From: Arthrobacter sp. V1I9
GTDB taxonomy: Bacteria; Actinomycetota; Actinomycetes; Actinomycetales; Micrococcaceae
NCBI RefSeq assembly: GCF_030817075.1
Contig: NZ_JAUSYU010000001.1
Coordinates: 1,922,001-1,986,000 of the forward strand
Length of the DNA stretch: 64,000 bases
Direction of reading: 5' to 3'
Made by a program: the position numbers and the translations under genes. Below are positions 25,300 through 56,896 of the stretch, in pieces; position 1 is the stretch's first letter; the number at the start of each line of letters is the position of its first letter. The notes beneath the pieces were generated by a model, which worked only from the letters and a program-made list of their open reading frames with translations, was not told where the DNA came from and did not search any database.

Positions 25300-25557
25300 T
25301 TACTTCTTGCCGCCGAAGCCCTTGAAGCGAGCGTTGAAGCGCTCGACGCGGCCTGCGGCGTCCATGATGCGCTGCTTGCCCGTGTAGAACGGGTGGGACT
25401 CTGAGGAGATTTCGACGTCGATAACCGGGTAGGTGTTGCCGTCTTCCCACTCGATGGTCTTCTTGGAAGACACGGTGGACTTGGTCAGGAACTTCGTGCC
25501 GGAGGCCAAGTCGTTGAAAACAACAGCTTCGTACTTCGGGTGGGTATCAGACTTCAT
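25300..25557 (-). CDS. rpmE2: 50S ribosomal protein L31 type B
   Basis: An 85-residue protein beginning [16 protein letters not shown] and ending in a basic KGFGGKK tail. It lacks the CxxC zinc motif of L31 type A and has the longer type B form. In many actinobacteria the zinc-free paralogue is induced by zinc starvation under Zur; no clear Zur box was seen upstream here. It is a single gene with its own terminator and marks the left edge of the core genome before the biosynthetic cluster. Confidence 0.95.
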
Positions 25558-25778: not shown

Positions 25779-26063
25779 GGCTTGGATACAGGTACTCGAA
25801 GTGGTTGCGGTGGGTTACGAACCCTGTCTACTGTCGAACCACAGGTTAGAAGCCTCAACTGTCTCGGAGTATCCGCGGTGGGGAAGCCAGGTATTCGCTG
25901 CTGGGGGAAATAGCGGCGGCCGCAGTGTTCCGTTCGTGCCGCTCTGCGCGGCTTTCTTGAAAAGTGAACCGGTCCGGACGCAGATGTCCGCCACCAATCA
26001 CACACCAGCTGGCAGGAACTTTCCCCAACCCTGACCAAGCTTATGGCAGGGACGAGGGAGAAC

Positions 26064-27137
26064 ATGCCGATTATCAAGGATCCATACCTGTTCAACGAGC
26101 AGAGCCTGTTCATTGACCTGGAAGGGGTACTGGGCCGCCGCCTTTATTTGAAGATCGAGGGGTTCAATTTCGCGGGCTCAATCAAGCTCAAGCCCGCGCG
26201 GGAAATGGTGGAGCGCGCAGAGCGGGAGGGGCTGATCGGCCCAGGCTCCGTTCTCGTGGAGTCATCCTCGGGCAACCTCGGCGTCGCGCTCAGCATGATC
26301 TCCGCCAGCAAGGGATACCGCTTCGTGTGTGTGATCGATCCGCGCTGCAACCCGGCAACCCGGCAACTCATGGAGTCGCTCGGGGCACGGGTGGACCTGG
26401 TCACCGAACCGGACCCCGTCGACGGCTTCCTCGGAGCCCGGCTGAACCACGTGCGGGAGCTGTGCGCGTCCGACGAACAGTACGTCTGGCTCAACCAGTA
26501 CACCAATCCCGGCAACTGGGGAGCGCACTACCGCTGGACTGCCCCCGAGATTTCCAATCAGTTCCCCGAACTGGACGTGCTGTTCGTGGGTGCCGGGACA
26601 ACGGGGACCTTGATGGGTTGCGCGCGGTACTTCCGTGAGCACCGGCCCGATGTCCGCATTGTTGCGGTCGACGCCGCAGGATCCGTCTCGTTCGGTGGCC
26701 TGCCGGCCACCCGGCTGATCCCGGGACTTGGCATGAGCGTGCGGCCGCCGCAGCTCGACGAGTCCTTGATCGATGACGTAGTGATGGTCGAAGAACTGGA
26801 CACGGTGCGCGCCTGCCACCGCCTCACCGCGGCCGGCTTCATGCTCGGTGGCTCCACTGGGACCGTGGTCCACGGCGCCATGTCTTGGCTCGCCGACCAC
26901 GATGCCCAGGACCTGATGGCGGTGGCCATTTCCCCGGACATGGGCCGTCCCTACCTTGACACTGTCTACAACCCTGACTGGGTACACGATCATTTCGGGG
27001 CCGAAACGCTGCGAACCGACGATCGGACGGGGGCTCCGGGCCGACAATCCGGCCCGCTGTCGGAGCCACAGCACCCGACACCCGTACCCGCGGCCGCTTA
27101 CGCGGCCACCGCCGCAGCAGGAAATTTCCTAAGGTGA
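26064..27137 (+). CDS. sbnA: SbnA-like N-(2-amino-2-carboxyethyl)-L-glutamate synthase
   Basis: A 357-residue fold-type II PLP enzyme. The PLP lysine is in FNFAGSIKLKPA (Lys41), SSSGNLGVAL holds the substrate loop, and GAGTTGTLMGCARYF binds the PLP phosphate. LNQYTNPGNWGAHY and the SIK-type lysine motif are those of the SbnA group rather than CysK. SbnA condenses O-phospho-L-serine with L-glutamate to give ACEGA, which SbnB oxidises to L-2,3-diaminopropionate. ATG 26064 has GAGGGAG at good spacing; ATG 26043 has none. It is the first gene of the cluster, 2 bp before the next gene. The C-terminal 40 residues are Pro/Ala-rich and probably disordered. Confidence 0.88.
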   Translation: MPIIKDPYLFNEQSLFIDLEGVLGRRLYLKIEGFNFAGSIKLKPAREMVERAEREGLIGPGSVLVESSSGNLGVALSMISASKGYRFVCVIDPRCNPATRQLMESLGARVDLVTEPDPVDGFLGARLNHVRELCASDEQYVWLNQYTNPGNWGAHYRWTAPEISNQFPELDVLFVGAGTTGTLMGCARYFREHRPDVRIVAVDAAGSVSFGGLPATRLIPGLGMSVRPPQLDESLIDDVVMVEELDTVRACHRLTAAGFMLGGSTGTVVHGAMSWLADHDAQDLMAVAISPDMGRPYLDTVYNPDWVHDHFGAETLRTDDRTGAPGRQSGPLSEPQHPTPVPAAAYAATAAAGNFLR

Positions 27138-27139
27138 AC

Positions 27140-30100
27140 ATGCGTATCGACAACCTTCAGGGAACTCCGCGTTTCATCCCTCCCATGAGTCCTCCTGTTC
27201 CTGAGGCAACCGCGGCTTCGGCCGGGGACGGCCCTCCAGCCACGCCGGCTACGGGTGCGGACGTTGTCCTGGAGCGCCGGCTGGCGGATCTGCTCGCATC
27301 GGTGGTGAAGAAGGACGATGTCCCCGTGGACGCCAACTTCTTTTACGAATTGGGCGCGGACTCTCTGGTCATGGCGCAGTTCTGCGCCCGGGTGCGCAAG
27401 CAGCCGGACCTGCCCGCCGTGTCGATCAAGGACATCTACCAGAACCCTACGATCGGCGCTCTGGCAGCGGCTTTGGCACCAACAGAAACGACGGCGCCTG
27501 CGGCGGAATTAATGTCCGCATCTGTGCAGATCCGGCTAGCCGAGTTGCTGGCTGGCGTACTGGGCCGTGAACAGGTCTCCACTGACGCCAACTTTTTCAA
27601 CGACCTGGGCGCGGACTCGCTCGTGATGGCACAGTTCTGTGCCCGGGTGCGCAAGCAGCCGGACCTGCCGCCGGTGTCCATCAAGGACATTTACCAGAAC
27701 CCCACGATCGGCGCTCTGGCAGCGGCTTTGGCACCAACAGAAACGCCGGCGCCTGCGGCGGAATCAATGTCCGCATCTGTGCAGATCCGGCTAGCCGAGT
27801 TGCTGGCTGGCGTACTGGGCCGTGAACAGGTCTCCACTGACGCCAACTTTTTCAACGACCTGGGCGCGGACTCGCTCGTGATGGCACAGTTCTGTGCCCG
27901 GGTTCGCAAGCACCCAGACCTGCCGCCGGTATCGATCAAAGACATCTACCGAACCCCGACGATCTCGGCGCTGGCCTTGGCCCTGGCACCGGCGGACCCG
28001 GCGCCGTCCAGCCCGCCTGCGGTTGCCGGTACACCCACCTCACGCAGAGCACTACCGGAAGCGTCACCCGATCCCGCACCCGAGGCGACCTCTGCGAACA
28101 ACGCGGGGCAAGGGCGACACGGGGCCGTCCCCGCGGTGGTAACTCCGGCCACGACAACCGAGTACTTGACGTGTGGCATGCTGCAGGTGCTGATCTTCCT
28201 TGCCTACACCTATCTTTACGCAGTGATCTTCGAGAAGGGGCTGGAATGGGTCTGGGCGGGTAATACTTTGCCCGACCACTATGTAAGGGGCGCCGGCTTC
28301 GGTGCCGTGACCTTCGTGACCATGTGCACGCTGCCCATCCTGGTCAAATGGGTTCTCATCGGTCGCTGGAGGCCCCAGGAGATTCGCATCTGGAGCCTGG
28401 CCTACGTGCGGTTCTGGTTCGTCAAGACGGCAGTGATGGCCAACCCGCTGGTCCTCTTTGCCGGGTCCCCGCTGTACCTGCTCTACCTGCGCGCCCTGGG
28501 AGCCAAGGTCGGAAAGGGCGCGGTCGTCTTCACCCGTCACATGCCAGTCTGTACCGACATGCTCACGATCGGCGAGCACACGGTTATCGACAAAGAAACC
28601 TTCCTCAGCGGGTACCGCGCCATCAACGGCGTGATCCAGACGGGCCCGGTGTCAATAGGCGGGAATGTCCTCATCGGTGAGAAGGCGGTGCTCGATATCC
28701 GCACCTCGCTCGGCGACGGGGCCCAATTGGGCCACGCCTCGTCCCTCCACGAGGGCCAGTCAGTACCCGCCGGAGAGAGCTGGAACGGATCGCCGGCGAG
28801 GCTAACGAGCACCGACTACCGGATGGTACCCCCGGCTCCCTGCGGCACTTGGCGGAGGGCAAGGTTCGCGGTCCTGCAGTTGGCGAACCGCCTGCTCATA
28901 ACGGTGCCTGTGGCCTTCACTTTCCTGTCTGTGGTCATCGTCGAGGTGCCGTGGACCCGGGAGCTTTTGGACACACCTCACCTGTCACTCGCCAGCTGGT
29001 CTTTCCTGGGTGTCGTCCTGGGGCTGTCCTTGGCGCTATTCCTGGGCGCGATGATCGTGAGCCTGATCTTCGTCATGACCGTCCCGCGACTACTGAACCT
29101 TGCGCTCAAACCGGACCGCGTCTACCCGTTGTACGGTATCCACTACGTCCTGCACCGGGCGATCGGGCGCATCACCAACCGGAAGTTCTTCCACGAGCTA
29201 TTCGGCGACAGCTCCTTCATTGTTCACTACCTGCTGTCCCTCGGATACAAGCTCTCCCCCGTGGTGCAAACCGGTTCCAACTTCGGCACCGAGGTGAAGC
29301 ACGACAACCCTTATCTGAGCGCGGTCGGCCGGGGAACCGTCGTCGCGGCTGGCCTCTCGTTCATCAACGCCAACTACTCCAGCACGGCTTTCAGCGTGTC
29401 GCGGAGCGCCATTGGCGCGAACAGCTTCCTCGGCAACGACATCGTCTACCCCCCGCAGGGCAAGGTGGGCGACAACTGCCTCATCGCGACAAAGGCCCTC
29501 GTCCCGATCGACGGAGAGATCCGGGAGGGCATCGGCCTGCTCGGATCACCTGCTTTCGAAATTCCCCGAACGGTGCAACGGGACAGCGCCTTCATCCGTA
29601 TGGCGCACGACGACGAGTTCCCTCGCCGGCTCGCCGCCAAGAACCGGCACAACCTGGTGAGCATGGCGCTGTTCCTGCTCTCACGCTGGTTCTACACCTT
29701 CGTGGTGCTGCTGGCCTCGCTGACCTCCGTGGACCTGATCCAGCAATTCGGCGCCTTCGCGATCATGGGACTCCCCGTGGTGATGCTGGTTTTCACTGTG
29801 CTGTACTTCGCCTTCGTCGAGCGGGCATCCACGGGATTCCACGGAGTACGGCCAAAGCACTGCTCAATCTACGACATTGACTTCTGGCGGACTGAACGCT
29901 TCTTCAAGCTGTGCGCCCGGGCAAACGTGCACAGGCTGCTCAGCGGCACGCCCTTCAAGGGACCCACTTGGCGGCTCGTCGGCGTCCGTGTGGGTAAGCG
30001 ACTATTCGATGATGGTGCCGGGATGTCCGAGAAGAACATCGTCACCTTGGGAGACAACGTGATACTCAACGCCGGGTCGTACATCCAGTGCCACTCCCAG

Positions 30101-30379
30101 GAGGATTACGCGTTCAAATCCGACGCCACCGTAATCGGTTCGGGCTGCACGCTCGGCGTAGCGACGATGGTGCACTACGGGGTCACCATGGGCGACGGAG
30201 TGGTGCTCGCCCCGGACTCCTTCCTGATGAAGGGCGGGGAGGTCCCGGCCTTCGAGCGTTGGGGAGGCAATCCTGCCGAAGTATTGAGCGCTTCGACCTC
30301 TGGCCTGCCGGCGCTGCCAATCGGCACTGCCTCACCAGCTTCGAGTGGCGGCGCCGCAGGTGCAGTCGCAACGTATTGA
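27140..30379 (+). CDS. Three tandem carrier domains fused to a Pls-type membrane condensation region
   Basis: A 1079-residue protein. Three PCP domains lie at about 43-113, 128-198 and 213-283, each with the phosphopantetheine motif LGADSLVMAQF (Ser75, Ser160, Ser245). After a Pro/Ala linker come six membrane helices (about 345-366, 385-410, 584-605, 624-650, 841-864, 871-895) separating three soluble lobes (about 454-554, 717-808, 967-1041). The lobes have hexapeptide, left-handed beta-helix character. This is the membrane half of epsilon-poly-L-lysine synthetase (Pls), which repeatedly joins carrier-bound amino acids without a classical condensation domain. Unlike Pls, no adenylation domain is attached; it is encoded next door. 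ATG 27140 is preferred over GTG 27134 for AAGG spacing. Confidence 0.88.
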   Translation: MRIDNLQGTPRFIPPMSPPVPEATAASAGDGPPATPATGADVVLERRLADLLASVVKKDDVPVDANFFYELGADSLVMAQFCARVRKQPDLPAVSIKDIYQNPTIGALAAALAPTETTAPAAELMSASVQIRLAELLAGVLGREQVSTDANFFNDLGADSLVMAQFCARVRKQPDLPPVSIKDIYQNPTIGALAAALAPTETPAPAAESMSASVQIRLAELLAGVLGREQVSTDANFFNDLGADSLVMAQFCARVRKHPDLPPVSIKDIYRTPTISALALALAPADPAPSSPPAVAGTPTSRRALPEASPDPAPEATSANNAGQGRHGAVPAVVTPATTTEYLTCGMLQVLIFLAYTYLYAVIFEKGLEWVWAGNTLPDHYVRGAGFGAVTFVTMCTLPILVKWVLIGRWRPQEIRIWSLAYVRFWFVKTAVMANPLVLFAGSPLYLLYLRALGAKVGKGAVVFTRHMPVCTDMLTIGEHTVIDKETFLSGYRAINGVIQTGPVSIGGNVLIGEKAVLDIRTSLGDGAQLGHASSLHEGQSVPAGESWNGSPARLTSTDYRMVPPAPCGTWRRARFAVLQLANRLLITVPVAFTFLSVVIVEVPWTRELLDTPHLSLASWSFLGVVLGLSLALFLGAMIVSLIFVMTVPRLLNLALKPDRVYPLYGIHYVLHRAIGRITNRKFFHELFGDSSFIVHYLLSLGYKLSPVVQTGSNFGTEVKHDNPYLSAVGRGTVVAAGLSFINANYSSTAFSVSRSAIGANSFLGNDIVYPPQGKVGDNCLIATKALVPIDGEIREGIGLLGSPAFEIPRTVQRDSAFIRMAHDDEFPRRLAAKNRHNLVSMALFLLSRWFYTFVVLLASLTSVDLIQQFGAFAIMGLPVVMLVFTVLYFAFVERASTGFHGVRPKHCSIYDIDFWRTERFFKLCARANVHRLLSGTPFKGPTWRLVGVRVGKRLFDDGAGMSEKNIVTLGDNVILNAGSYIQCHSQEDYAFKSDATVIGSGCTLGVATMVHYGVTMGDGVVLAPDSFLMKGGEVPAFERWGGNPAEVLSASTSGLPALPIGTASPASSGGAAGAVATY
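27449..27903 (+). repeat. 255-bp tandem duplication encoding carrier domains 2 and 3
   Basis: The DNA from 27449-27648 recurs at 27704-27903 with only about two or three base changes, a spacing of exactly 255 bp (85 codons). Carrier domain 1 is similar in protein but has diverged at the DNA level. The duplication of domain 2/3 is therefore recent, or kept alike by gene conversion. Confidence 0.9.
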
Positions 30380-30395
30380 TCGAGGAGACCACAAT

Positions 30396-33011
30396 ATGGA
30401 TGTGCTGACTGACGAGCAACGCGACTTCTGGCGGGGCATGCTCGCCGGAGGCGGGCACACTGCCGTCCCGCGATGGACCCTAAATCCCCACCCCGGACTG
30501 GACGAGCACCACGAGACCCTCCCTCATAATCTTGTAGGGACCTTACGTCGCCTGGCGGACAGCCTTGGGACGACCCTGGACGTTCTGTTGCTGGCCGCCC
30601 ACGCCAAAGTGGTCGCAGTGTTGGCAGGGGAGCGGGAAATCGTCATCGGGTATGCAGTAGCTCCCGGGCACCAGCCGCTGCCCTGCCGATTGACCACCGA
30701 ACCAACGTCTTGGCGGGCGCTCCTGGTGGAAGTGGGTCGCCGGGAGCGGGAGTGCCGCCAGCACCTTGAGGCCGGAGGTTACGAGGATCTCCTCGACGGC
30801 CTCTGCCTGGAGCTAAACCTGAGCCGCCCGCTCTTTGAGACCGTGTTCGACCCGCGGGACGCCCTGAGGGAGCTGACCGAGGACACGGTTCTGCAGGTGG
30901 CGATGATATCCGAGGGCATCACCGGCGCCCGTTTGCAGCTGCGGTATCGCAGCGACGCTCTCGACGCTACCGCCGCAGCGCGCATTGCCGGCTACCACGT
31001 GGCTGCTTTGAGAGCCATCGCGGCGCACACCGACGAAGATCATGACCGCGTGTGCCTGCTCGCCCCTGAGGAATTGCGACTCCAACTGGAGGAGTTGGCG
31101 GGGCCCAGGCGGGAGCTACCGGACCTGCGGGTGCACGAGATCTTCGAACAGCGAACCGAGTCCGATCCGGAGGCCGTCGCTGCCATTCACGGCGAATGCA
31201 GCCTGACCTACCGCGAGCTGAACGCCCGGGCGAACCGGCTGGGCAGGGCGCTGCAGGCTCGCGGACTCGACCACGAGACAGTGGTCACCGTAGTGATGGA
31301 GCGCAATTTGGATTGGATGGTGACCGTTCTGGCCATCTGGAAAGCCGGGCTCGCGTACCTACCGCTCGAGCCGCACTTCCCGCCCGAGCGCATGGCCACG
31401 GCCATATCGCGGGCGGAGTCACCACTTGTCATTACAGAGCGCGCCAGTACCGCGACGCTTGACCAAGCGCTCGCCACCCTGCCGGACGTGGAGGAGCTTT
31501 TCGTCGAAGTACTCGCCGCCGAGGACCACGCCGAGGGGAACCTCGGCGTGGTCGTTGCCCCGAACCAGCTCGCGTACATCCTGTTCACGTCCGGGTCTAC
31601 CGGGCAGCCGAAGGGTGTGATGTGCGAGCACGCCGGGATGCTGAACCACATCTATGCCAAAATCGACGACCTCGGAGTGCGCGAAGGCGAGGTCATCCCT
31701 CAAACCGGTCCACAATGCTTCGACATCTCGGTGTGGCAGCTGGTGGCAGCCTTGCTCGTCGGCGGGCGGACCCTGTTCGTCGACCAGGACGCGATTCTCG
31801 ACGTCGAGCGGTTCGTTGACACGGTTCTGGATGGGCGGGCAGGCGTGATTCAGGTTGTTCCGTCATACCTTGAGGTCATTGTGTCTTTCCTGGAGCAAAA
31901 CCCACGGAAGCTGCCGGACCTGCACTGCGTGTGCCCCACCGGCGACTTCCTGAAGAAGGAGCTCGTCCAGCGTTGGTTCGCGCTCTACCCTGATGTTCCG
32001 GTCGTCAACACGTATGGGCTCACGGAGACGTCGGACGACGCGGTCCACGAGATTATGGACCGGGCCCCGGCAGGGCCACGGGTGCCCCTCGGAAGGCCGA
32101 TCAACAATGTACACGTTGACGTGGTCGACGAGTACGGCAGTCCGGTACCGCTCGGGGCGCCTGGGCTGATTGTGTTCTCTGGCGTGTGTGTGGGCCGCGG
32201 GTACGTCAACGATGCAGAGCGAACCGACGCGATGTTCGGCCCAGACCCGAACCGTGCCGGTGAGCGCGTCTGCCGTACCGGCGATTATGGCCGGTGGATG
32301 CCGGACGGAAAGCTCGATTTCCTGGGACGGCGCGACAACCAGGTGAAGATCAGGGGATTCCGGATCGAAATCGGAGAGATCGAGAATGCCCTGCTTCGAG
32401 TGCCTGAAGTTCGCGACGGCGCTGTCGTCGTCGGGGAGGGCGCGGATCAGGTTAAGTTCCTCGTGGCCTTTTACTCGGGCCGACGGCCACTCGAGATCGC
32501 CGAGTTGCGCAAGCAGATGGCGTCGCAAGTACCGGACTACATGGTCCCGTCGGCGTACCGGTGGCAGGAGAGCCTGCCTTTGACCGGCAACGGGAAAATC
32601 GACCGGAAATCCCTAGCCGGCATGGCGCAGGAAATCGTTCCCGAGGCCGGCCAGGCCACTGACGCCCTGTCGGCCACCGAGCAGCGGCTCGCGGAGGCCT
32701 GGGCGACGGTGCTCGGACTGCCCGCCGCCAGGATCGGTGGACAGGATTCCTTCTTTGCGCTGGGTGGGACCTCGCTGTCCGCAGTGAAACTCGCTGTACT
32801 GCTCAAGCGTGCTGTGTCGATCAAGGACATCCTGCAGACGCCCGTCCTGTCGGACCTGGCAGCCCTGCTTGAGGCCTCCTCTTTGGCAGACACTGCCCTT
32901 CCGCCCGCACTGCGTCCGGTGCCAGCCGCCGCGGAGCCCGATTCCGTGGCCCCGGTGGGAGGACCGGTGGGCCATTGCCACCCACTACCCGTGAAACGAA
33001 AGGACCTCTGA
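30396..33011 (+). CDS. NRPS: half condensation domain, adenylation domain, carrier domain
   Basis: An 871-residue protein. Residues 1-215 resemble only the C-terminal lobe of a condensation domain and lack HHxxxDG. An adenylation domain follows with A3 LFTSGSTGQPKG (about 396), A5 NTYGLTETSDD (538-548), A8 RRDNQVKIRGFRIEIGE and the A10 Lys734 (GNGKIDRKSL). By alignment with GrsA the pocket residues are D443, I444, W447, Q486, C513, T515, T539, D547, D548, K734. Two acidic residues at the pocket end fit a diamino acid. A carrier domain with Ser793 (LGGTSLS) ends it; there is no thioesterase. AGGAG precedes ATG 30396. The stop overlaps the next start (TGATG). Confidence 0.9.
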   Translation: MDVLTDEQRDFWRGMLAGGGHTAVPRWTLNPHPGLDEHHETLPHNLVGTLRRLADSLGTTLDVLLLAAHAKVVAVLAGEREIVIGYAVAPGHQPLPCRLTTEPTSWRALLVEVGRRERECRQHLEAGGYEDLLDGLCLELNLSRPLFETVFDPRDALRELTEDTVLQVAMISEGITGARLQLRYRSDALDATAAARIAGYHVAALRAIAAHTDEDHDRVCLLAPEELRLQLEELAGPRRELPDLRVHEIFEQRTESDPEAVAAIHGECSLTYRELNARANRLGRALQARGLDHETVVTVVMERNLDWMVTVLAIWKAGLAYLPLEPHFPPERMATAISRAESPLVITERASTATLDQALATLPDVEELFVEVLAAEDHAEGNLGVVVAPNQLAYILFTSGSTGQPKGVMCEHAGMLNHIYAKIDDLGVREGEVIPQTGPQCFDISVWQLVAALLVGGRTLFVDQDAILDVERFVDTVLDGRAGVIQVVPSYLEVIVSFLEQNPRKLPDLHCVCPTGDFLKKELVQRWFALYPDVPVVNTYGLTETSDDAVHEIMDRAPAGPRVPLGRPINNVHVDVVDEYGSPVPLGAPGLIVFSGVCVGRGYVNDAERTDAMFGPDPNRAGERVCRTGDYGRWMPDGKLDFLGRRDNQVKIRGFRIEIGEIENALLRVPEVRDGAVVVGEGADQVKFLVAFYSGRRPLEIAELRKQMASQVPDYMVPSAYRWQESLPLTGNGKIDRKSLAGMAQEIVPEAGQATDALSATEQRLAEAWATVLGLPAARIGGQDSFFALGGTSLSAVKLAVLLKRAVSIKDILQTPVLSDLAALLEASSLADTALPPALRPVPAAAEPDSVAPVGGPVGHCHPLPVKRKDL

Positions 33012-34012
33012 TGTCTTCGCCTTCACCCAGAATTGGGTTTGACCTTGAACGCCAAGCCGGCCAGCCACAGATGCTCGCCGTGGAATACGGCCACGATCCC
33101 GTCCAGTGGGCCGAACAGCACCAGGAGTCCCTGCGCATGGCGGTAGCGGAGCACGGCGCTGTGCTGGTACGCGGCCTCGCCCTCAGGGATCCGGCCGAAG
33201 TTGCGGATGTCTTTCATGGGCTGGTCCCGGGCGGCCTCATGCCGGACCGGGAGGCTTTTGCCGCACGGCAGCCCTATCTCGACGGCGTCTACTCTTCCCT
33301 GAAGTGGCCTGCTAACCAGTCCATGTGCATGCACCACGAGCTCAGCTACGCGCTCGAGTTCCCCGGTCTGATGCTTTTCGGCTGCCTTCAGGCTCCGAGC
33401 GCCGGTGGCGTGACCGGCGTGGCGGACTCCCGCGCAGTGCTCAACGCCCTGCCCCGGGACATCGTCGAGCGGTTCGAAAGCGAGGGGTGGCTGCTCACGC
33501 GCAGCTACAACGAGGACATCGGGGCCAGCTACGAGGAAGCGTTCGGGGTGGACGACCGCGCCGCCGTCGAGGAGTACTGCCGCGCCCACGCGATTGAGTT
33601 CGAGTGGCAGCCCGACGGAGAGCTCCGCACGCGGCAACGGCGCCCCGCCGTAGTCCGGCACCCCCTGACGGGCGAGCGCTGCTGGTTCAACCAGATCGCT
33701 TTCCTAAGCGAATGGACGATCGCCCCCGAAGTGCGGGAGTACCTCGTCGACGTCTACGGTGCCGACGGGCTGCCCTTCAATACCCGCTTCGGCAACGGGG
33801 AACCTATAGGCAAGGACATTGTTGCCCTCTTGAACGACGTCTACGAGGCAAACACGCTGCGGACCCCTTGGGAGTCCGGCGACCTCATGTTGGTCGACAA
33901 CATCCGCATGGCCCACAGCCGGGAGGCCTATGAGGGGCCTCGGGAGGTACTGGTCGGCATGGCCGAGCCCCGCAATGTCTTTGACCTTGTTACTGAGGAT
34001 GGTGCCCGATGA
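33011..34012 (+). CDS. TauD/TfdA-family Fe(II)/2-oxoglutarate oxygenase
   Basis: A 333-residue protein. MCMHHELSYA gives an HxE metal pair (His108, Glu110), as in the amino acid hydroxylases AsnO and VioC, instead of the usual HxD. The distal ligand His302 is in DNIRMAHSREAYEGPR, with Arg311 for 2-oxoglutarate. It is coupled to the NRPS gene upstream and to sbnB downstream (ATGA). It most likely oxidises a free or carrier-bound amino acid of this pathway. Hydroxylation at C3 of diaminopropionate would give an unstable carbinolamine, so another carbon or another residue may be the target. Confidence 0.85.
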   Translation: MSSPSPRIGFDLERQAGQPQMLAVEYGHDPVQWAEQHQESLRMAVAEHGAVLVRGLALRDPAEVADVFHGLVPGGLMPDREAFAARQPYLDGVYSSLKWPANQSMCMHHELSYALEFPGLMLFGCLQAPSAGGVTGVADSRAVLNALPRDIVERFESEGWLLTRSYNEDIGASYEEAFGVDDRAAVEEYCRAHAIEFEWQPDGELRTRQRRPAVVRHPLTGERCWFNQIAFLSEWTIAPEVREYLVDVYGADGLPFNTRFGNGEPIGKDIVALLNDVYEANTLRTPWESGDLMLVDNIRMAHSREAYEGPREVLVGMAEPRNVFDLVTEDGAR

Positions 34013-35076
34013 CCGACTACGCGATTACCCCGGCAGCTCCCGCGTCTGAGCCGAAAACGGTCCCGCCGTTCGCGGTCATTCCCGGGGCACAGGTGCAGGA
34101 GGTGCTCAGGGGCCGTGAGAAGCAGGTGATCGAACTGGTCGAGCAGACTTACCGGACGCACGCAGCTGGCGACTCGGTAAACCCTCCGTCATACTTCCTG
34201 CGCTTTCCGGACCGGCCCTCCGCGCGAATTATCGCCCTGCCCGCCTCGGTTGGAGGTGACGTAGGAGTCGACGGTATCAAGTGGGTCTCCAGCTTCCCGG
34301 ACAACGTGGCGTTGGGGATACCCCGCGCCTCCGCGGTTCTGATACTCAATGACCCGGCAACGGGCTACCCCTTCGCCTGCATGGAGAGCTCCATCATCAG
34401 CGCCTCCAGGACCGCGGCGTCGGCTGCCGCAGCCGCGGACTGGCTCAGCCGCGGACGAGGACGTCCACGGAGCATCGGGTTCTTCGGGGTCGGCCTCATT
34501 GCCCGCTACATCCATACCTTCCTGGACGCATCCGGCTGGTCCTTTGATGACATCGGGGTGTATGACCTCTTGGGCGCAAGCGCGGAGGGATTCAAGGGCT
34601 ACCTTGAACGCAGCGGCACGGCGGCCCGCGTGACGGTTCATGATGGTCCCGAACAACTGATACGGAGCAGCGACGTAATCGTGTTCGCTACCATAGCGGG
34701 CCAGCCGCACGTGCACCAGGTGGCGTGGTTTGAGCACAACCCGCTGGTACTTCACGTGTCCCTGCGCGACCTCGCCCCGGAGATCCTGTTGGCGTCGACC
34801 AACATCCTTGACGACATCGACCACTGCCTGAAGGCCGGAACGTCTGCCCACCTCGTGGAGCAGATGGTCGGTCACCGGGACTTCGTGGACGGCACCCTGG
34901 CCGATGTCATGGCCGGCAGTGTCTCGCTGGCGGACGACCGCCCGGTGGTGTTCTCACCGTTCGGCCTGGGCGTGCTCGACTTGGCGTTGGGTAAGTACGT
35001 CTATGACGAAGTTGCCCGTAGCGGCCAGCTCGGCGTAATCGACGACTTCTTCTCGGAGCTGCGTCGGTATGGCTAA
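34009..35076 (+). CDS. sbnB: SbnB-like ACEGA dehydrogenase (2,3-diaminopropionate synthesis)
   Basis: A 355-residue member of the ornithine cyclodeaminase/mu-crystallin family. A Rossmann segment GFFGVGLIARYIH binds NAD, and MESSIISASRTAASAAAAA is the conserved substrate region. Paired with SbnA in one operon it should split ACEGA oxidatively to L-2,3-diaminopropionate and 2-oxoglutarate. The 2-oxoglutarate released could also feed the neighbouring oxygenase. The start overlaps the oxygenase stop by four bases. Confidence 0.9.
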   Translation: MTDYAITPAAPASEPKTVPPFAVIPGAQVQEVLRGREKQVIELVEQTYRTHAAGDSVNPPSYFLRFPDRPSARIIALPASVGGDVGVDGIKWVSSFPDNVALGIPRASAVLILNDPATGYPFACMESSIISASRTAASAAAAADWLSRGRGRPRSIGFFGVGLIARYIHTFLDASGWSFDDIGVYDLLGASAEGFKGYLERSGTAARVTVHDGPEQLIRSSDVIVFATIAGQPHVHQVAWFEHNPLVLHVSLRDLAPEILLASTNILDDIDHCLKAGTSAHLVEQMVGHRDFVDGTLADVMAGSVSLADDRPVVFSPFGLGVLDLALGKYVYDEVARSGQLGVIDDFFSELRRYG

Positions 35077-35115
35077 CGTGGAACGCCCGGACCCGCGAGA
35101 GGAGGCATCTGCGGC

Positions 35116-36279
35116 ATGGGCAGAGTGACAGGCTCAGTACGTACCTCCGGGTGCGAGTGGCTGCAGTACGACTATGGTCCCGGTTTGGTTCCGGAAGAGG
35201 GGCTTGGAGCATTCACGATGTGGCGGTACCGCCACCTCCTGCCCATGTCCGATGGGCCGGTGGCTTATCCCCTGCCTATCGGAGGCACGCCGCTGCTTCC
35301 GGCCCCGGCGCTAAGAGCCGCCTTGGGGACACCGTCCCTGTGGCTCAAGGATGAGACCCGCGGCCCTACGGCGTCGAACAAAGACCGGGCTACTGCGCTG
35401 GTGATTGAGGACGGGTTGCGGCACGGCTTGGACACCATCACGACGGCTTCAACGGGCAACGCCGCAGTTGCGACGGCGTTCGGGGCGGCAGCCGCGGGAA
35501 TGCGTGCAGCCATCTTTGTATCGATCGATTGTCAGGAGGACAAACTCGGACTGATGACTCAGGCCGGGGCATGGGTGTTCCAGGTGCCTGATGGCTACGC
35601 GGCCGCCGTCGACCTGTCTCGCGCAGCGGTCGAGGAGTTCGGGTGGGTGGACCGGAACACCGGAGTGAATCCCCTGACGACCGAAGCCAAGAAGACCGTG
35701 GCGCTGGAGGTCTGGGAGCAGCTTGGCCGCCGGATGCCGGACGTGATGATCGCTCCGGTGGGGGACGGTCCCACTCTCGCCGCACTCGAAAAGGGCTTCG
35801 CCGAGTTGGTTGCGTGTGGAGTTGCCGCCAGTATGCCCCGCCTGGTCGGTGTGCAGGCTCGGGCCTGCCAACCGCTCGTGCGCGCTTGGCAGGGGACCGA
35901 TCCAGCACCTGACGAACTGGACCCGGGGTCCACGTTGGCTGACGGGATCGCCGTCCTGCGGCCCGCCATCGGCGATGCCGTGCTCCGAGCCGTACGTTCC
36001 AGTGGCGGCGCGATGGTCGCGGTGAGCGATTCTGAGCTCATGGACGCTGTCGGTTTGCTGGCCTCGACGGCGGGCGTCGGTGCGGAGCCGGCCGGTGCAG
36101 CCTCGCTGGCGGGCTTGCGGAGTGCTCTGCGTGAGGGGTTGGTGGACGGCAATGAAAGCGTCGTCGTGCTGGTCACCGGCCGCGAGATCAAGGCGGCGGG
36201 CTCCCCAAGCCGGGGCAGGGTCGCAGTGGCCGACCGGCTGGATGACGTACGGGAAGCATTCGGAAGGGTTCCCCTGTAA
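35116..36279 (+). CDS. Threonine-synthase-like PLP enzyme
   Basis: A 387-residue fold-type II PLP protein. The PLP lysine is Lys89 (GPTASNKDRA), followed by ASTGNAA and a phosphate-binding APVGDGPTLAA loop; LKDETRGPT is typical of threonine synthase and diaminopropionate ammonia-lyase relatives. It starts at ATG 35116 after GAGGAGG, 39 bp past sbnB. Possible roles are a second beta-replacement giving another diamino acid, or eliminating an amino or phospho group from a pathway intermediate. It differs enough from SbnA that both are unlikely to do the same step. Confidence 0.75.
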   Translation: MGRVTGSVRTSGCEWLQYDYGPGLVPEEGLGAFTMWRYRHLLPMSDGPVAYPLPIGGTPLLPAPALRAALGTPSLWLKDETRGPTASNKDRATALVIEDGLRHGLDTITTASTGNAAVATAFGAAAAGMRAAIFVSIDCQEDKLGLMTQAGAWVFQVPDGYAAAVDLSRAAVEEFGWVDRNTGVNPLTTEAKKTVALEVWEQLGRRMPDVMIAPVGDGPTLAALEKGFAELVACGVAASMPRLVGVQARACQPLVRAWQGTDPAPDELDPGSTLADGIAVLRPAIGDAVLRAVRSSGGAMVAVSDSELMDAVGLLASTAGVGAEPAGAASLAGLRSALREGLVDGNESVVVLVTGREIKAAGSPSRGRVAVADRLDDVREAFGRVPL

Positions 36280-36343
36280 CGGGATCTCTGTAAGTGACCC
36301 ATGGCGCAAGAAAGGAAGAGATGACGCAATAAGGAGCAGTCTC

Positions 36344-36376
36344 ATGCCGGCAAGCAGCCATACCACCGATGACTAG
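36344..36376 (+). other. Possible 10-residue mini-peptide frame
   Basis: In the 181-bp gap before the LuxE-like gene, AAGGAG precedes ATG by 8 bases and the frame reads MPASSHTTDD then stop. Two shorter start-stop frames lie just upstream (36301-36324 and the next 12 bases). This could be a leader for translation control or chance. Confidence 0.2.
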
Positions 36377-36460
36377 ACTGCCAACGCGCGCGTCCTGCCA
36401 ATCGAGTCCAACAATTCGTTCCCATCCATGCGACGACCGAGCAAACTGAGGAGTGACACA

Positions 36461-37648
36461 ATGCTCTCCCTACCGCAGATGCTGGGGAATGTGTCCAAGG
36501 CCTACGTCCAGTCCCCTGAGGACTGGGCACGGTCGGTCACCGACGTCCTGCGGGACGCCGCGATCTACCACCACGCCGGAAACGGCTTCTACCGCGCCCA
36601 ATGTGACGCCTTGGGAGTCGACCCCGCCACGATCAACGACCTCAACGACCTGCAATCCCTGCCACTTTTGCCGGCCGGCATGTTCAAGCGTCCCGACGCC
36701 AAGGTGCTGCTCACCTGCTCCCTGGCAGATGTCGAGACCGAATCCCGCTCCAGCGGGACCCGCGGTGTCCAGTCCGTCACCCCCCGCAACAGCGAGACAT
36801 TGACCCTGGCGCTGGTCGCCCTGATCGGGACCTACCGGGCGTTCTTCAACCTGTCCGGGGGCGCGGGACTTTTTTTGAACCCGTCGGATCCCGAAGCCTC
36901 GGAGATGGGACTGCTCAAGGACTTGAACATCCTGAACAGCGTCTTCGACCACCACGCATATCTCGTTGCCGACCAGGCGTTCGACGCCGGGGAGGCCTTG
37001 GAGCACCTGCGCCGGTGGGAGGGACACATGACACGCCACATCGTCAGTCCGCCGTTCCTCGTCGACCGGCTCCTCCGGTTCCTTGAGCGGGAGAATATCA
37101 GTGTGCGGTTGGACCCGTTCAGCATGATCATCACTCTCGGCGGCTGGAAGCGGCATACAGCCGAGGCCATCCCTGATGAAGACTTTCGGGAGCGGTGCCA
37201 CGACTTGCTCGGCGTGCGCGCGGTGAACGTGCGCGACATGTATGGGATGGTCGAGTCGAACATGCTCGCTGTGGAGTGCCACCTGCATCGCAAGCACGTC
37301 CCGCCGTGGTGCTACATCTCCATCCGGGACCCCGGCCAGAGCGGCCGGGAGGTCGCCTCCGGGGAGACCGGCACCATCGCCGTACTGGACGCCCTCAGCA
37401 CCAGCTACCCCGGTTTCCTCCTCACCGACGACATGGGCGACGTCGAGACCGGCACCTGCGGGTGCGGCAGGACCGGCCAGGTCATCAACTTCCGCCGCCG
37501 GGGCCAAGGCGGCGGGCTGGGCCACTGCCCCGTCAGCATCGAGCGCTACCTCGGTTCGGGCACTGCCGCGAACAATGAAACGCCGGCGCTTGTGAAGGCC
37601 CAAGCTGGGGACCGCAGTCGGGGCAGTTCCGCCTACCGGGTCGCATAG
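36461..37648 (+). CDS. LuxE-type acyl-protein synthetase
   Basis: A 395-residue adenylating enzyme of the LuxE/acyl-protein synthetase family (ANL superfamily). RSSGTRG at 96-102 is the P-loop-like motif and DMYGMVESN (about 258-266) the A5-like motif. Cys356 (LGHCPVS) near the C-terminus may match the acyl-accepting cysteine of LuxE; this is inferred. A CGCG pair lies just before. LuxE enzymes activate a fatty acid and pass it to a thiol. Here it could load a starter or cap acyl/aminoacyl group onto a carrier. ATG 36461 follows AGGAG. The 3' end overlaps the convergent methyltransferase gene by 16 bp. Confidence 0.8.
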   Translation: MLSLPQMLGNVSKAYVQSPEDWARSVTDVLRDAAIYHHAGNGFYRAQCDALGVDPATINDLNDLQSLPLLPAGMFKRPDAKVLLTCSLADVETESRSSGTRGVQSVTPRNSETLTLALVALIGTYRAFFNLSGGAGLFLNPSDPEASEMGLLKDLNILNSVFDHHAYLVADQAFDAGEALEHLRRWEGHMTRHIVSPPFLVDRLLRFLERENISVRLDPFSMIITLGGWKRHTAEAIPDEDFRERCHDLLGVRAVNVRDMYGMVESNMLAVECHLHRKHVPPWCYISIRDPGQSGREVASGETGTIAVLDALSTSYPGFLLTDDMGDVETGTCGCGRTGQVINFRRRGQGGGLGHCPVSIERYLGSGTAANNETPALVKAQAGDRSRGSSAYRVA

Positions 37649-38466
37649 AACGCAACCGCCGATGAGGCGGCAACATTCAGCGAATCCACGCCATTCATCA
37701 TCGGAATCGTCACGCGCGCGTCGAGCAACCGCTCAGTCTCGGGCTTTAGCCCGTCACCTTCAGTACCGAAGACCAACACCAGACTCTGATGATCCTGGGC
37801 CACCAGCTCATCAAGAGTGATGGCCCCCTCCCCCAGAGACATGCCTGCAACGAAATACCCCGCCTCTTTCAGCTGTTCGAGACTGGCCGGCCACGATTCG
37901 ATCCGCGTCCATGGCACCTGGAAGACCGTGCCCATCGACACGCGGATCGAGCGGCGGTAGAGCGGGTCGGCACACTGCGGCGTCACCAGTACGCCGTCGA
38001 CGCCGATCGCTGCGGCGCTGCGAAAAACCGCACCTACGTTTGTATGGTCCGTAAGGTTTTCCAGGATCGCGATCCTTGATCGCCCTCGTGCACGGCCGCC
38101 CTCGGACTCCTGCGCACTGACCAGCAGTTCCGGCAGCGGTACCGGCGCGGGGCGCTGCATTGCGGCCATGGCACCGCGGTGAAGATGGAAACCGGTGATT
38201 TCCTCCAGCAGGGCCGCGCTGCCGATGAAGGCCGGGACGTGGGGGTAGGCACCGAGGATGTCCTGAAGGTCGTCCAGCCACTTTTCCGCGAGGAAGAAGG
38301 ACCGGGGCTGGTGCCCCGCGGCCAGGGCGCGGCGCAGCACGCGGGAGGATTCGGCGATATACATGCCCTCCGCGGGCTCCCGGATTTTGCGCAGGTGCAC
38401 ATCCGTGAGCTGGGTGTAGTCGGACACCCGGGGGTCGGCGGCAGATTCGAGATAGTGGATTGTCAC
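37633..38466 (-). CDS. TrmH/SpoU-family RNA 2'-O-methyltransferase
   Basis: A 277-residue protein with an N-terminal substrate-binding domain (1-110) and a C-terminal SPOUT knot. Motif 1 is LENLTDHTNVGAVFRSA, motif 2 LVFGTEGDGL, and motif 3 IPMMNGVDSLNVAASSAV, which forms the SAM-binding knot. It methylates a ribose in rRNA or tRNA; the exact site cannot be told. Its start overlaps the TauE gene stop by four bases, so it is last in an ABC-TauE-TrmH operon. Confidence 0.9.
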   Translation of the reverse strand: MTIHYLESAADPRVSDYTQLTDVHLRKIREPAEGMYIAESSRVLRRALAAGHQPRSFFLAEKWLDDLQDILGAYPHVPAFIGSAALLEEITGFHLHRGAMAAMQRPAPVPLPELLVSAQESEGGRARGRSRIAILENLTDHTNVGAVFRSAAAIGVDGVLVTPQCADPLYRRSIRVSMGTVFQVPWTRIESWPASLEQLKEAGYFVAGMSLGEGAITLDELVAQDHQSLVLVFGTEGDGLKPETERLLDARVTIPMMNGVDSLNVAASSAVAFYATR

Positions 38467-47984: not shown

Positions 47985-49049
47985 ATGGATTTCAACCGGC
48001 TTCTGCAGATACGGCGCATCTACGCGCAGCCGGCTGCGCTGGAGCTTCCCAGGGGCAAGGAGATGGTCGAACGCTGGCCGGACGCCGACGTCGTGCTGGT
48101 CGACAATCATTGGAACATCCCCGAGGTGCACGGTGATGAAGCGAACGTTCCGCGCTGGTCCCGGATCAAGACGGAGTCGCTGGTCCTCGGCGTCAAGAAG
48201 GCGCTGACCGTCAAGCCCAACGGCAGGTCGGCGGATTTTATTGCCCCCTCCACCGCGAACGGCTGTGCGATGGCATGCGCTTACTGCTACGTGCCCAGGC
48301 ATAAGGGGTATAGCAACCCGGTGACCGTGTTCGCGAACATCGGCCAGATCGCCGGGGCGCTAGAGCGGCACGTCACCCGCCAGGGCATGAAGCTGGAACC
48401 CAACCAGTGCGACCCCGAACTGTGGGTCTATGACATCGGTGAAAACAGCGACTGCTCCGTGGACGCGCTGATCAGCGACAACGTGCAGGATCTCGTCACG
48501 CTCTTCCGCGACCTGCCTACTGCCAAACTGTCCTTCGCCACCAAGTACGTGAACCCGGCGATGCTCGGCTGGGACCACGGCGGCCACACCCGGGTCCGCT
48601 TTTCGCTGATGCCCGCGGATATGGCTAAATCGATTGACGTCCGGACCTCACCGGTGGCTGAACGCATGGCCGCTATCAACGACTTTGTCGACGCCGGCTA
48701 CGAGGTGCACGTGAACTTCTCCCCCGTCATCATCACCGACACTTGGCTTTCGGACTGGGAGGGGCTGCTGCGCCAGCTCGATGCCACCCTGACACCGGCC
48801 GCAAAGGCCCAGCTCGCGGCTGAAGTCATCTTCCTGACCCACAACGAGCGGCTCCATGAGGTCAACCTTGGGTGGCATCCGCAAGCCGAAAAGGTGCTGT
48901 GGCGGCCGGACCTTCAGGAATCGAAGGTCTCGTCCAACGGCTTCACCAACGTCCGCTACCGTTCAGGAAGCAAGGGGCGCTATATGCGGCAACTGACCGC
49001 GCTCATTGAGGAGATAGCGCCTTACTGCCGCATCCGCTACGCCTTCTGA
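47985..49049 (+). CDS. Spore-photoproduct-lyase-family radical SAM protein
   Basis: A 354-residue protein with the radical SAM cluster motif CAMACAYC (Cys94, Cys98, Cys101) and SPL-family features such as TANGCAMAC, YDIGENSDCSVD and KVLWRPDLQESK. True SPL repairs the UV spore photoproduct in endospores. This organism type does not sporulate, so the protein may repair another thymine lesion or do different radical chemistry. It is a lone gene after the ArfB-like gene. Confidence 0.85.
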   Translation: MDFNRLLQIRRIYAQPAALELPRGKEMVERWPDADVVLVDNHWNIPEVHGDEANVPRWSRIKTESLVLGVKKALTVKPNGRSADFIAPSTANGCAMACAYCYVPRHKGYSNPVTVFANIGQIAGALERHVTRQGMKLEPNQCDPELWVYDIGENSDCSVDALISDNVQDLVTLFRDLPTAKLSFATKYVNPAMLGWDHGGHTRVRFSLMPADMAKSIDVRTSPVAERMAAINDFVDAGYEVHVNFSPVIITDTWLSDWEGLLRQLDATLTPAAKAQLAAEVIFLTHNERLHEVNLGWHPQAEKVLWRPDLQESKVSSNGFTNVRYRSGSKGRYMRQLTALIEEIAPYCRIRYAF

Positions 49050-56662: not shown

Positions 56663-56896
56663 GGCACACCTACCGCTAGGAGGGGGAGAGAACGGTGCCA
56701 TCGTCGGATGGGAGCCTCGTAAAAACCTTGTACCAGCACATGGCTGGCGCGTGAAGCACCCAAACCGGGGTCCCAATCGAACGATCTATGCACAAGGCGT
56801 GGCGCTCCCAGTCGGAGCGACAGTCGCGCAGTGGACGGTCCAAGACTGGTATCGTTATGTGTTCGTAACAATCCCGACTGAATTGCGTGTGAGTAT

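Follow-up and report, generated by a model that had tools for sequence, protein, structure and literature searches.

The window analysed here is a stretch of 64,000 nucleotides from the genome of Arthrobacter sp. V1I9 (contig NZ_JAUSYU010000001.1, positions 1,922,001 to 1,986,000), and its subject is an operon of seven co-directional genes on the + strand (26043–37648), all seven of which have open reading frames. The operon probably encodes a split synthetase of the family of Pls (epsilon-poly-lysine synthetase) and PosA. In this synthetase, a membrane protein and a separate protein with half a condensation domain (half-C), an adenylation (A) domain and a peptidyl carrier (PCP), hereafter the A protein, would load a 2,3-diamino acid for which homologues of SbnA and SbnB are the predicted suppliers; a TauD-family enzyme likely oxidises this unit, and a polymer or oligomer likely results. 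The following features were found:

26043..27137, + strand: SbnA homologue, a pyridoxal phosphate (PLP) enzyme predicted to make the precursor of 2,3-diaminopropionate (Dap) from O-phosphoserine and glutamate (TIGR03945)
27140..30379, + strand: membrane half of the putative split Pls, three carriers and the Pls/PosA polymerisation domain (TIGR02353, PF00550 three times)
27329..27964, + strand: tandem repeat covering most of the carrier array, period 255 bp, 2.5 copies with 93% matches (Tandem Repeats Finder, TRF)
28169..30277, + strand: Pls membrane domain, residues 346–1048, with three helix pairs and three beta-helix lobes (TIGR02353, AlphaFold2 model)
30396..33011, + strand: A protein, a predicted trans-acting loader with a putative condensation C-lobe, an A domain and a carrier (PF00501, PF13193, PF00550)
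31143..32621, + strand: A domain, pocket D-I-W-Q...T...D-D, type T (motif placement)
33011..34012, + strand: TauD-family Fe/2-oxoglutarate oxygenase with HHE and HSR motifs (PF02668, 156.5 bits)
34009..35076, + strand: SbnB homologue, predicted to release Dap and 2-oxoglutarate (TIGR03944)
35116..36279, + strand: threonine-synthase-like PLP enzyme, paralogue of the housekeeping ThrC (TIGR00260, 143.3 bits)
36428..37648, + strand: LuxE-like acyl-protein synthetase, with a second in-frame ATG at 36461 (PF04443, 114.9 bits)

The genes were found to be mostly coupled, as stated in the original prediction, which had been made from the sequence alone. The ATG of the TauD gene (33011) overlaps the stop of the A-protein gene, and the ATG of SbnB (34009) overlaps the stop of TauD, while uncoupled gaps of 39 and 148 bp precede the threonine-synthase-like gene and LuxE, respectively. 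The start previously given for SbnA (26064) was shown to be the second in-frame ATG, the first being at 26043. For the membrane protein, a GTG at 27134 overlaps the SbnA stop, with the ATG at 27140 as an alternative; the A protein probably starts at the ATG at 30396, which has a GAGGAG site ahead of it, rather than at the GTG at 30345. The Pfam models TauD, PALP, OCD and LuxE all scored above cut-off in the window proteins. No transporter or regulator was found among the seven genes.

The membrane protein matched TIGR02353 over the whole model (668.2 bits, model positions 1–695 of 695; cut-off 423.1), and the relation of its membrane region to Pls thus stood up to alignment. The three predicted carriers were also recovered as three PF00550 (PP-binding) stretches, each with an LGADSL motif (residues 73, 158, and 243). 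A model of the whole protein, built on 18 sequences (the window protein and 17 of 120 listed homologues), was poor, with a predicted local distance difference test (pLDDT) of 53. Therefore, the membrane part alone was remodelled with 87 sequences (the window and 86 of the 120 homologues; AlphaFold2 model m8f40ea0ac37a), giving a mean pLDDT of 88.3 and a predicted template modelling score (pTM) of 0.89. In this model, helix pairs are predicted within residues 2–69, 233–316 and 490–560 of the membrane part, with strands in between. Its six long helices, arranged in three pairs, and its three beta-helix lobes agree with the six-helix, three-lobe region described beforehand, and the same layout has been reported for a model of PosA (PMC10522769). 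Single lobes matched hexapeptide acetyltransferases in Foldseek with query TM-scores of at most 0.17, and no solved structure resembling the whole membrane part was found, both among the 50 of 499 matches listed. When the Protein Data Bank was searched by sequence with this part, four matches to hexapeptide-type proteins were obtained, all short and weak.

Compared to typical Pls and PosA enzymes, the synthetase differs in two respects: the A domain lies outside the membrane polypeptide, on a protein of its own (30396–33011), and there are three carriers on the membrane protein and one on the A protein instead of a single one. The same genome also contains a second, fused Pls-type synthetase (G000:C1:2337492-2339561; L001) in which the A3 and A10 motifs are present and whose membrane domain shows just 24% identity to that of the operon; the strain may therefore make two polymers.

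Further analysis of the A protein showed PF00501, PF13193 and one PF00550 together with motifs A3, A5, A7, A8, and A10, which bears out the A and PCP parts of the predicted half-C/A/PCP organization. The half-C part leans on similarity among relatives, as Pfam gave no Condensation match in the window A protein and the relative L053 gave only a weak match at that region (25.7 bits, below the cut-off of 30.6); we take the N-terminal region to be the C-lobe of a condensation domain.

Relatives of the operon were collected by searching one genome per species with a membrane-protein profile; this gave 514 stretches, of which 453 were confirmed and the best 80 kept. Of the 80 loci, 60 had the A protein (at least 55% identity in the A domain). 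The threshold for presence was 52% identity, and Arthrobacter-type membrane domains of 47–49% identity were therefore scored as absent though found by tblastn. The table used for comparison holds 80 rows: the 60 scanned loci, the window and 19 rows (L098–L116) that partly duplicate others; L002, a cut copy of the window without a pocket code, was left out. Among the rows with at least 5.5 kb of downstream sequence (n = 55 including the window and none of L098–L116), TauD was present in 55, SbnA in 54 and SbnB in 54, so the cluster search suggested in the original prediction did find the Pls-like protein together with SbnA and SbnB in actinobacteria. This core of PCP-Pls protein, half-C/A/PCP protein, TauD, SbnB, and SbnA recurs in Streptomyces, Pseudonocardia, Kutzneria, Amycolatopsis, Geodermatophilus, Arthrobacter and others. 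A cluster unique to this genome was therefore dropped as an explanation. Of the suggestion that the split architecture might be new, what stands is that it is undescribed in the literature searched; it is not peculiar to this genome, 60 of the best 80 loci having the A protein.

Two further genome sets were scanned. In 197 Micrococcaceae genomes the A protein was found in 17 (E ≤1e-120) and TauD in the same 17 (E ≤1e-20), LuxE in 16, all from among these 17 with none in the other 180 (E ≤1e-3), and the threonine-synthase-like gene in two (E ≤1e-60), one of them a 169-residue fragment in G009. The TauD sequences from this set include ones identical to those of Arthrobacter, Kocuria, and Citricoccus loci. 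Among 396 genomes of the phylum, the A protein was found in eight (E ≤1e-180), TauD in seven (E ≤1e-80), and SbnB above cut-off in 11. All seven TauD genomes had the A protein at most 0.8 kb from a TauD copy and SbnB adjoining a TauD copy; G009 has two TauD copies, and by this search the A protein and SbnB adjoin different ones. The eighth genome with the A protein, G208, gave no TauD match; its completeness is 86%. G009, which belongs to the same genus as the window, also has the LuxE and threonine-synthase-like genes as rearranged copies and fragments (G009:C17:411307-417224 and C14).

The A10 lysine was kept in 79/79 rows covering the motif when read by alignment, a strict pattern having missed 20 of them. 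With what we take to be the GrsA pocket numbering, placed by motif, the pocket residues D-I-W and the final D-D were present in 80/80 rows, and Q was at the fourth place in the A proteins displayed. The rows divided into two pocket types, type T (T322, PTGD) and type A (A322, TGE). A thioesterase domain was found behind the A domain in 24 of the 60 rows with enough sequence (rows with less than 1.5 kb behind the A domain and rows L098–L116 being left out), though not in the window. By family, it was present in Streptomycetaceae (17/20), Pseudonocardiaceae (6/18), and Geodermatophilaceae (1/5), but not in Micrococcaceae (0/12) or others (0/4); the domain of L053 was confirmed by Pfam.

Three observations suggest that the A protein and the membrane protein act together. 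First, natural fusions were found (P0045, 1696 aa, and P0032, 1681 aa) in which one chain combines the carrier(s) and the membrane domain with the half-C region and the A domain; their membrane domains showed 68% and their A domains 71% identity to those of the window. Second, in Pseudonocardia and its kin the membrane protein may still carry an N-terminal A domain. L038, L080, and L082 retain both the A3 motif and the lysine of A10 in this cis domain, while A3 is ruined in L037, L039, L041, L048, L050, L068, L071, P0083 and a protein of a Pseudonocardia autotrophica plasmid, where a fused A-3xPCP-Pls protein with a decayed A domain is followed by TauD. In L033 and P0096 the cis domain is truncated and has lost the A3 lysine. 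In eight loci (L033, L037, L039, L041, L048, L050, L068, and L071), the decayed cis domain is accompanied by a trans A protein that retains A3 and the A10 lysine; the draft contig of L042 shows its trans A gene interrupted by a frame change. The simplest reading of these sequences is that the cis A domain was lost after a trans loader took over. Third, the pocket types require a single change on the A tree and a single change on the membrane-domain tree, compared to seven on the TauD tree (at least three of them on well-supported branches). As read from these trees, the A domain and the membrane domain were shown to share one inheritance, different from that of the oxygenase. From the fusions, the decay of cis A domains beside a trans A protein and this co-inheritance, we infer that the two proteins together form a single machine.

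On plasmid pBCI2-1 of an ant-associated Pseudonocardia (L117 10034-17579), a PCP-Pls protein and TauD were found together with an SbnA-like protein, which scored below the equivalog cut-off, and a protein whose A domain has decayed. Besides, a nonribosomal peptide synthetase (NRPS) locus on a Kitasatospora plasmid (L118 7194-19180) contains the same pair of A protein and TauD, with 54% identity to the window in the A domain and 51% in TauD, a carbamoyltransferase nearby and no annotated Pls. This locus also has an argininosuccinate-lyase-like enzyme, a protein that is SbnA-like/ATP-grasp-like (both below the equivalog cut-offs) and an annotated kinase, a gene set that would be compatible with a different way of making a 2,3-diamino acid.

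The predicted Dap supply agrees with the scores of both enzymes, as the SbnA homologue reached 393.9 bits against the equivalog TIGR03945 (cut-off 349.95) and the SbnB homologue 412 bits against TIGR03944 (cut-off 326.9). In Streptomyces albulus, the supply homologues were reported to use serine and ornithine rather than O-phosphoserine and glutamate (PMC4668381). The threonine-synthase-like enzyme, also predicted originally, is indeed present; it scored 143.3 bits against TIGR00260, below the cut-off of 167.1, and retained the PLP lysine, with the GNAGN loop replaced. It was rejected as the housekeeping enzyme, since the true ThrC lies at C1:1371002 and scored 292.5 bits. Among rows with enough downstream sequence, its gene was present in 10/11 of type T and in 0/44 of type A, the type-T exception (L020) lacking both this gene and SbnB. 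As the gene tracks one pocket type, the monomer may not be plain Dap. Our guess is that the enzyme helps to make a second 2,3-diamino acid, perhaps 2,3-diaminobutyrate, for which an amine instead of water would be added to the usual aminocrotonate intermediate.

These results also bear on a simpler explanation, in which the operon is an ordinary poly-diaminopropionate (PDAP) system like that of S. albulus PD-1 except for a synthetase divided into two proteins, and the genes for the oxygenase, the threonine-synthase-like enzyme and LuxE are bystanders. The domain types of the PDAP synthetase and both kinds of supply gene are shared (PMC4668381). However, a bystander role does not fit an oxygenase gene that is present in 55/55 core rows and coupled by overlapping codons in the window, or a threonine-synthase-like gene so closely tied to one pocket type, and we regard this explanation as quite improbable. 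The split Pls-type synthetase with Dap supply was supported, while a plain Dap homopolymer, one of the products proposed originally, was weakened by the oxygenase in the core, by a type-T pocket that may be for another 2,3-diamino acid and by the thioesterases of other loci.

The oxygenase was of the HxE type, as predicted, HxE being present in 79/79 TauD rows and the distal HSR in 69/79 (some rows are duplicates). Its constant presence indicates that it acts in the main line of the pathway. Among solved structures, the best sequence matches were At3g21360 and a TauD protein, which do not settle the reaction; a match on a Burkholderia plasmid, lying in a stretch without annotated features, was not used. 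In the dapdiamide pathway, a Dap derivative is oxidised by DdaC while bound to the DdaD carrier (PMC12451424), which we take as a working parallel for carrier-bound oxidation here rather than as a sign of membership.

A closer reading of this parallel would make the product a small, defined molecule, with the A protein tethering acylated Dap, the oxygenase modifying it on the carrier, LuxE supplying the acyl group and the Pls domain serving as a releasing membrane acyltransferase. The tethered substrate of DdaC (PMC12451424), the thioesterase domains behind the A domain in 24 of 60 rows and the A–TauD pair in an ordinary NRPS locus of Kitasatospora would all suit such a product. However, the final D-D of the pocket would suit a free side-chain amine better than an acylated one, the two to four carriers on many Pls proteins and the co-inheritance of A and membrane domains fit iterative use, and the likeness to DdaC and DdaD is one of description alone. 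A small molecule of this kind is therefore considered rather unlikely, though it is the strongest competitor of a chain-forming synthetase.

The LuxE-like protein belongs to the LuxE domain family, in line with the ligase predicted (PF04443, 114.9 bits; cut-off 24.9), but it scored far below the luminescence LuxE equivalog (137.4 bits; cut-off 550), and its alignment to 7xc6 ends ahead of the C-terminal region. Among the loci examined, LuxE was found only in Micrococcaceae, where most loci have it in place of the thioesterase; Kocuria rosea L018 has neither. LuxE and the thioesterase may be different solutions to chain start or release.

Pairwise comparisons with eight Arthrobacter loci showed high mean identity for SbnA (85.5%), the A-protein carrier (79.4%), TauD (83.5%), SbnB (86.0%), and LuxE (87.3%), but low identity for the membrane domain (48.0%), half-C (36.9%), and the A domain (63.6%). 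Compared to nine type-T loci of other families, the pattern was reversed: the membrane domain (60.9%), half-C (48.9%), and A domain (71.9%) were closer, and SbnA (64.6%), the A-protein carrier (57.2%), TauD (65.2%), and SbnB (73.8%) more distant. The carrier array was less clear (69.0% to Arthrobacter and 61.2% to type T), its likeness to Arthrobacter being strong at the start and fading towards residue 300. This reversal indicates that a cassette with the membrane domain at one end and the A domain at the other was exchanged, with carrier sequences on either side; the threonine-synthase-like gene accompanies the type to which this cassette belongs. So clear a mosaic could also mark a recombinant cluster that is silent or in decay and has no working product in this strain, its middle swapped in from another lineage, and the LuxE and threonine-synthase-like fragments in G009 of the same genus would fit such decay. 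However, the seven frames are open, the motifs of the A domain, carriers, oxygenase, and threonine-synthase-like enzyme are kept and the exchanged parts are mutually of one type; decay is thus considered very improbable.

For the split synthetase that we favour, the following order of events is proposed. SbnA and SbnB would make Dap, which the threonine-synthase-like enzyme would change or to which it would add a related 2,3-diamino acid. The A domain would activate the monomer and load it onto the carrier of its own protein as well as, in trans, onto the three on the membrane protein, and the oxygenase would hydroxylate or desaturate the carrier-bound unit. At the membrane, the three beta-helix lobes would form isopeptide bonds and release the chain, which LuxE would cap or prime by activating a carboxylic acid. 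The product is likely a positively charged polymer or short chain.

Several observations weigh against this interpretation. A thioesterase behind the A domain suits a defined product better than an open-ended polymer. The oxygenase step is uncertain, since beta-hydroxylated Dap with a free amine would be unstable. The link of the threonine-synthase-like gene to the pocket, strong in count, rests on few independent events: on the TauD tree (L009, L011, L030, L042, and L098–L116 left out), three independent pairs on well-supported branches gave p 0.25 in a sign test. The type-T genome G148 gave no threonine-synthase-like match at E 1e-60, its contig ending there. Twenty of the best 80 membrane-protein loci lack this A protein, though L032, L080, and L082 lie on contigs that are too short. 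The Pseudonocardia plasmid loci L117 and L120 have a decayed cis A domain and no such trans A protein in the stretch; decay is thus not always paired with a nearby loader. The loci with an intact cis A domain sit on short contigs, and their contrast with the decayed ones is therefore not clean. Finally, neither SbnA nor SbnB was found in L021, L027, and L078, and Dap is therefore not universal.

These last three loci form a variant of their own (L021 9791-16640, L027 9911-16483, and L078 2-6144), in which the membrane protein and TauD are accompanied by a free carrier and by a free A protein of another kind; their monomer likely differs. In addition, no A domain was found by tblastn (E 1e-8) in the fetched PCP-Pls loci L019, L034, L035, L036, L044, L051, L054, L055, L056, L072, L073, L076, and L085, so that the loader of these 13, if any, must lie elsewhere.

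Beyond this operon, we tentatively suggest, at somewhat short of even confidence, that it belongs to a widespread actinobacterial class of trans-loaded polymer synthetases. Here a multi-carrier Pls would have lost its own A domain and depend on a loader that can be exchanged. This loader and the membrane condensation domain would be swapped as one cassette between conserved carriers, together with a monomer-supply gene, and the in-line oxygenase would lead to oxidised 2,3-diamino-acid polymers or oligomers, an undescribed class of cationic natural products. Pls enzymes make cationic homopolymers that serve as food preservatives and are under study as drug and gene carriers. The presence of the core in several actinobacterial families represents a sizeable pool of unexplored clusters. 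Natural cassette exchange points to parts that belong together (loader and membrane domain) and parts that are interchangeable (carriers and oxygenase), and the split version offers a direct way to test monomer choice by the membrane domain.

The surroundings of the operon showed no further members. Upstream, the nearest identified gene encodes a lipoate ligase on the opposite strand, with a small frame (25300–25557) in between. Downstream, a SpoU-family rRNA methyltransferase (37633–38466, - strand) is convergent with LuxE and overlaps it by 16 bp; it was dropped as an operon member because of its opposite, convergent orientation, and it is a housekeeping or possibly a resistance gene. Auxiliary gene calls were made with a simple GC-position script and include antisense false calls, so statements on synteny rest on tblastn. 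Elsewhere in the window, a 1929-residue protein with an animal-type haem peroxidase and RTX calcium-binding and FG-GAP repeats (50987–56776, - strand) and a radical SAM protein resembling spore photoproduct lyase (47985–49049, + strand) were found; to our knowledge, the family to which the window belongs is not known for spores.

The literature searched, with most items judged from their listings and subscription journals mostly outside its reach, yielded no description of a Pls that is split, has several carriers and comes with an oxygenase; nor had the same seven-gene set been published there, so that publication did not overturn the proposal. A review of unusual NRPSs (PMC8949500) contained none of the five terms looked for in it. 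The literature examined describes only fused A-carrier-membrane Pls enzymes with one carrier. When coryneform bacteria were surveyed for Pls, the threshold was 40% identity across 80% of the fused enzyme (PMC8117764), by which split forms would likely be missed.

Compared to Pls and PosA of Acinetobacter baumannii, the operon shares the TIGR02353 domain, three helix pairs, and three lobes (PMC10522769). In those enzymes, the A domain is in cis and there is one carrier. The two supply enzymes of the operon exceed the equivalog cut-offs of SbnA and SbnB of staphyloferrin B, a siderophore whose pathway uses NRPS-independent siderophore (NIS) synthetases and is not known to involve a Pls. We know of no Pls membrane domain among the dapdiamide enzymes. 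What the operon has in common with DdaC and DdaD is a 2-oxoglutarate oxygenase paired with a carrier protein that tethers a Dap derivative (PMC12451424). The PDAP system of S. albulus PD-1 likewise combines A domain, carrier and Pls-type membrane domain, in a synthetase (EXU85975.1) encoded by one gene of 4,338 bp with one carrier, and its NjxA and NjxB supply Dap through a cysteine-synthase-like and an ornithine-cyclodeaminase-like protein, as in the operon; the part of its account that was consulted describes no oxygenase, threonine-synthase-like or LuxE gene (PMC4668381). Compared by description, the Arthrobacter operon differs in having two proteins, four carriers, and supply genes within the same operon.

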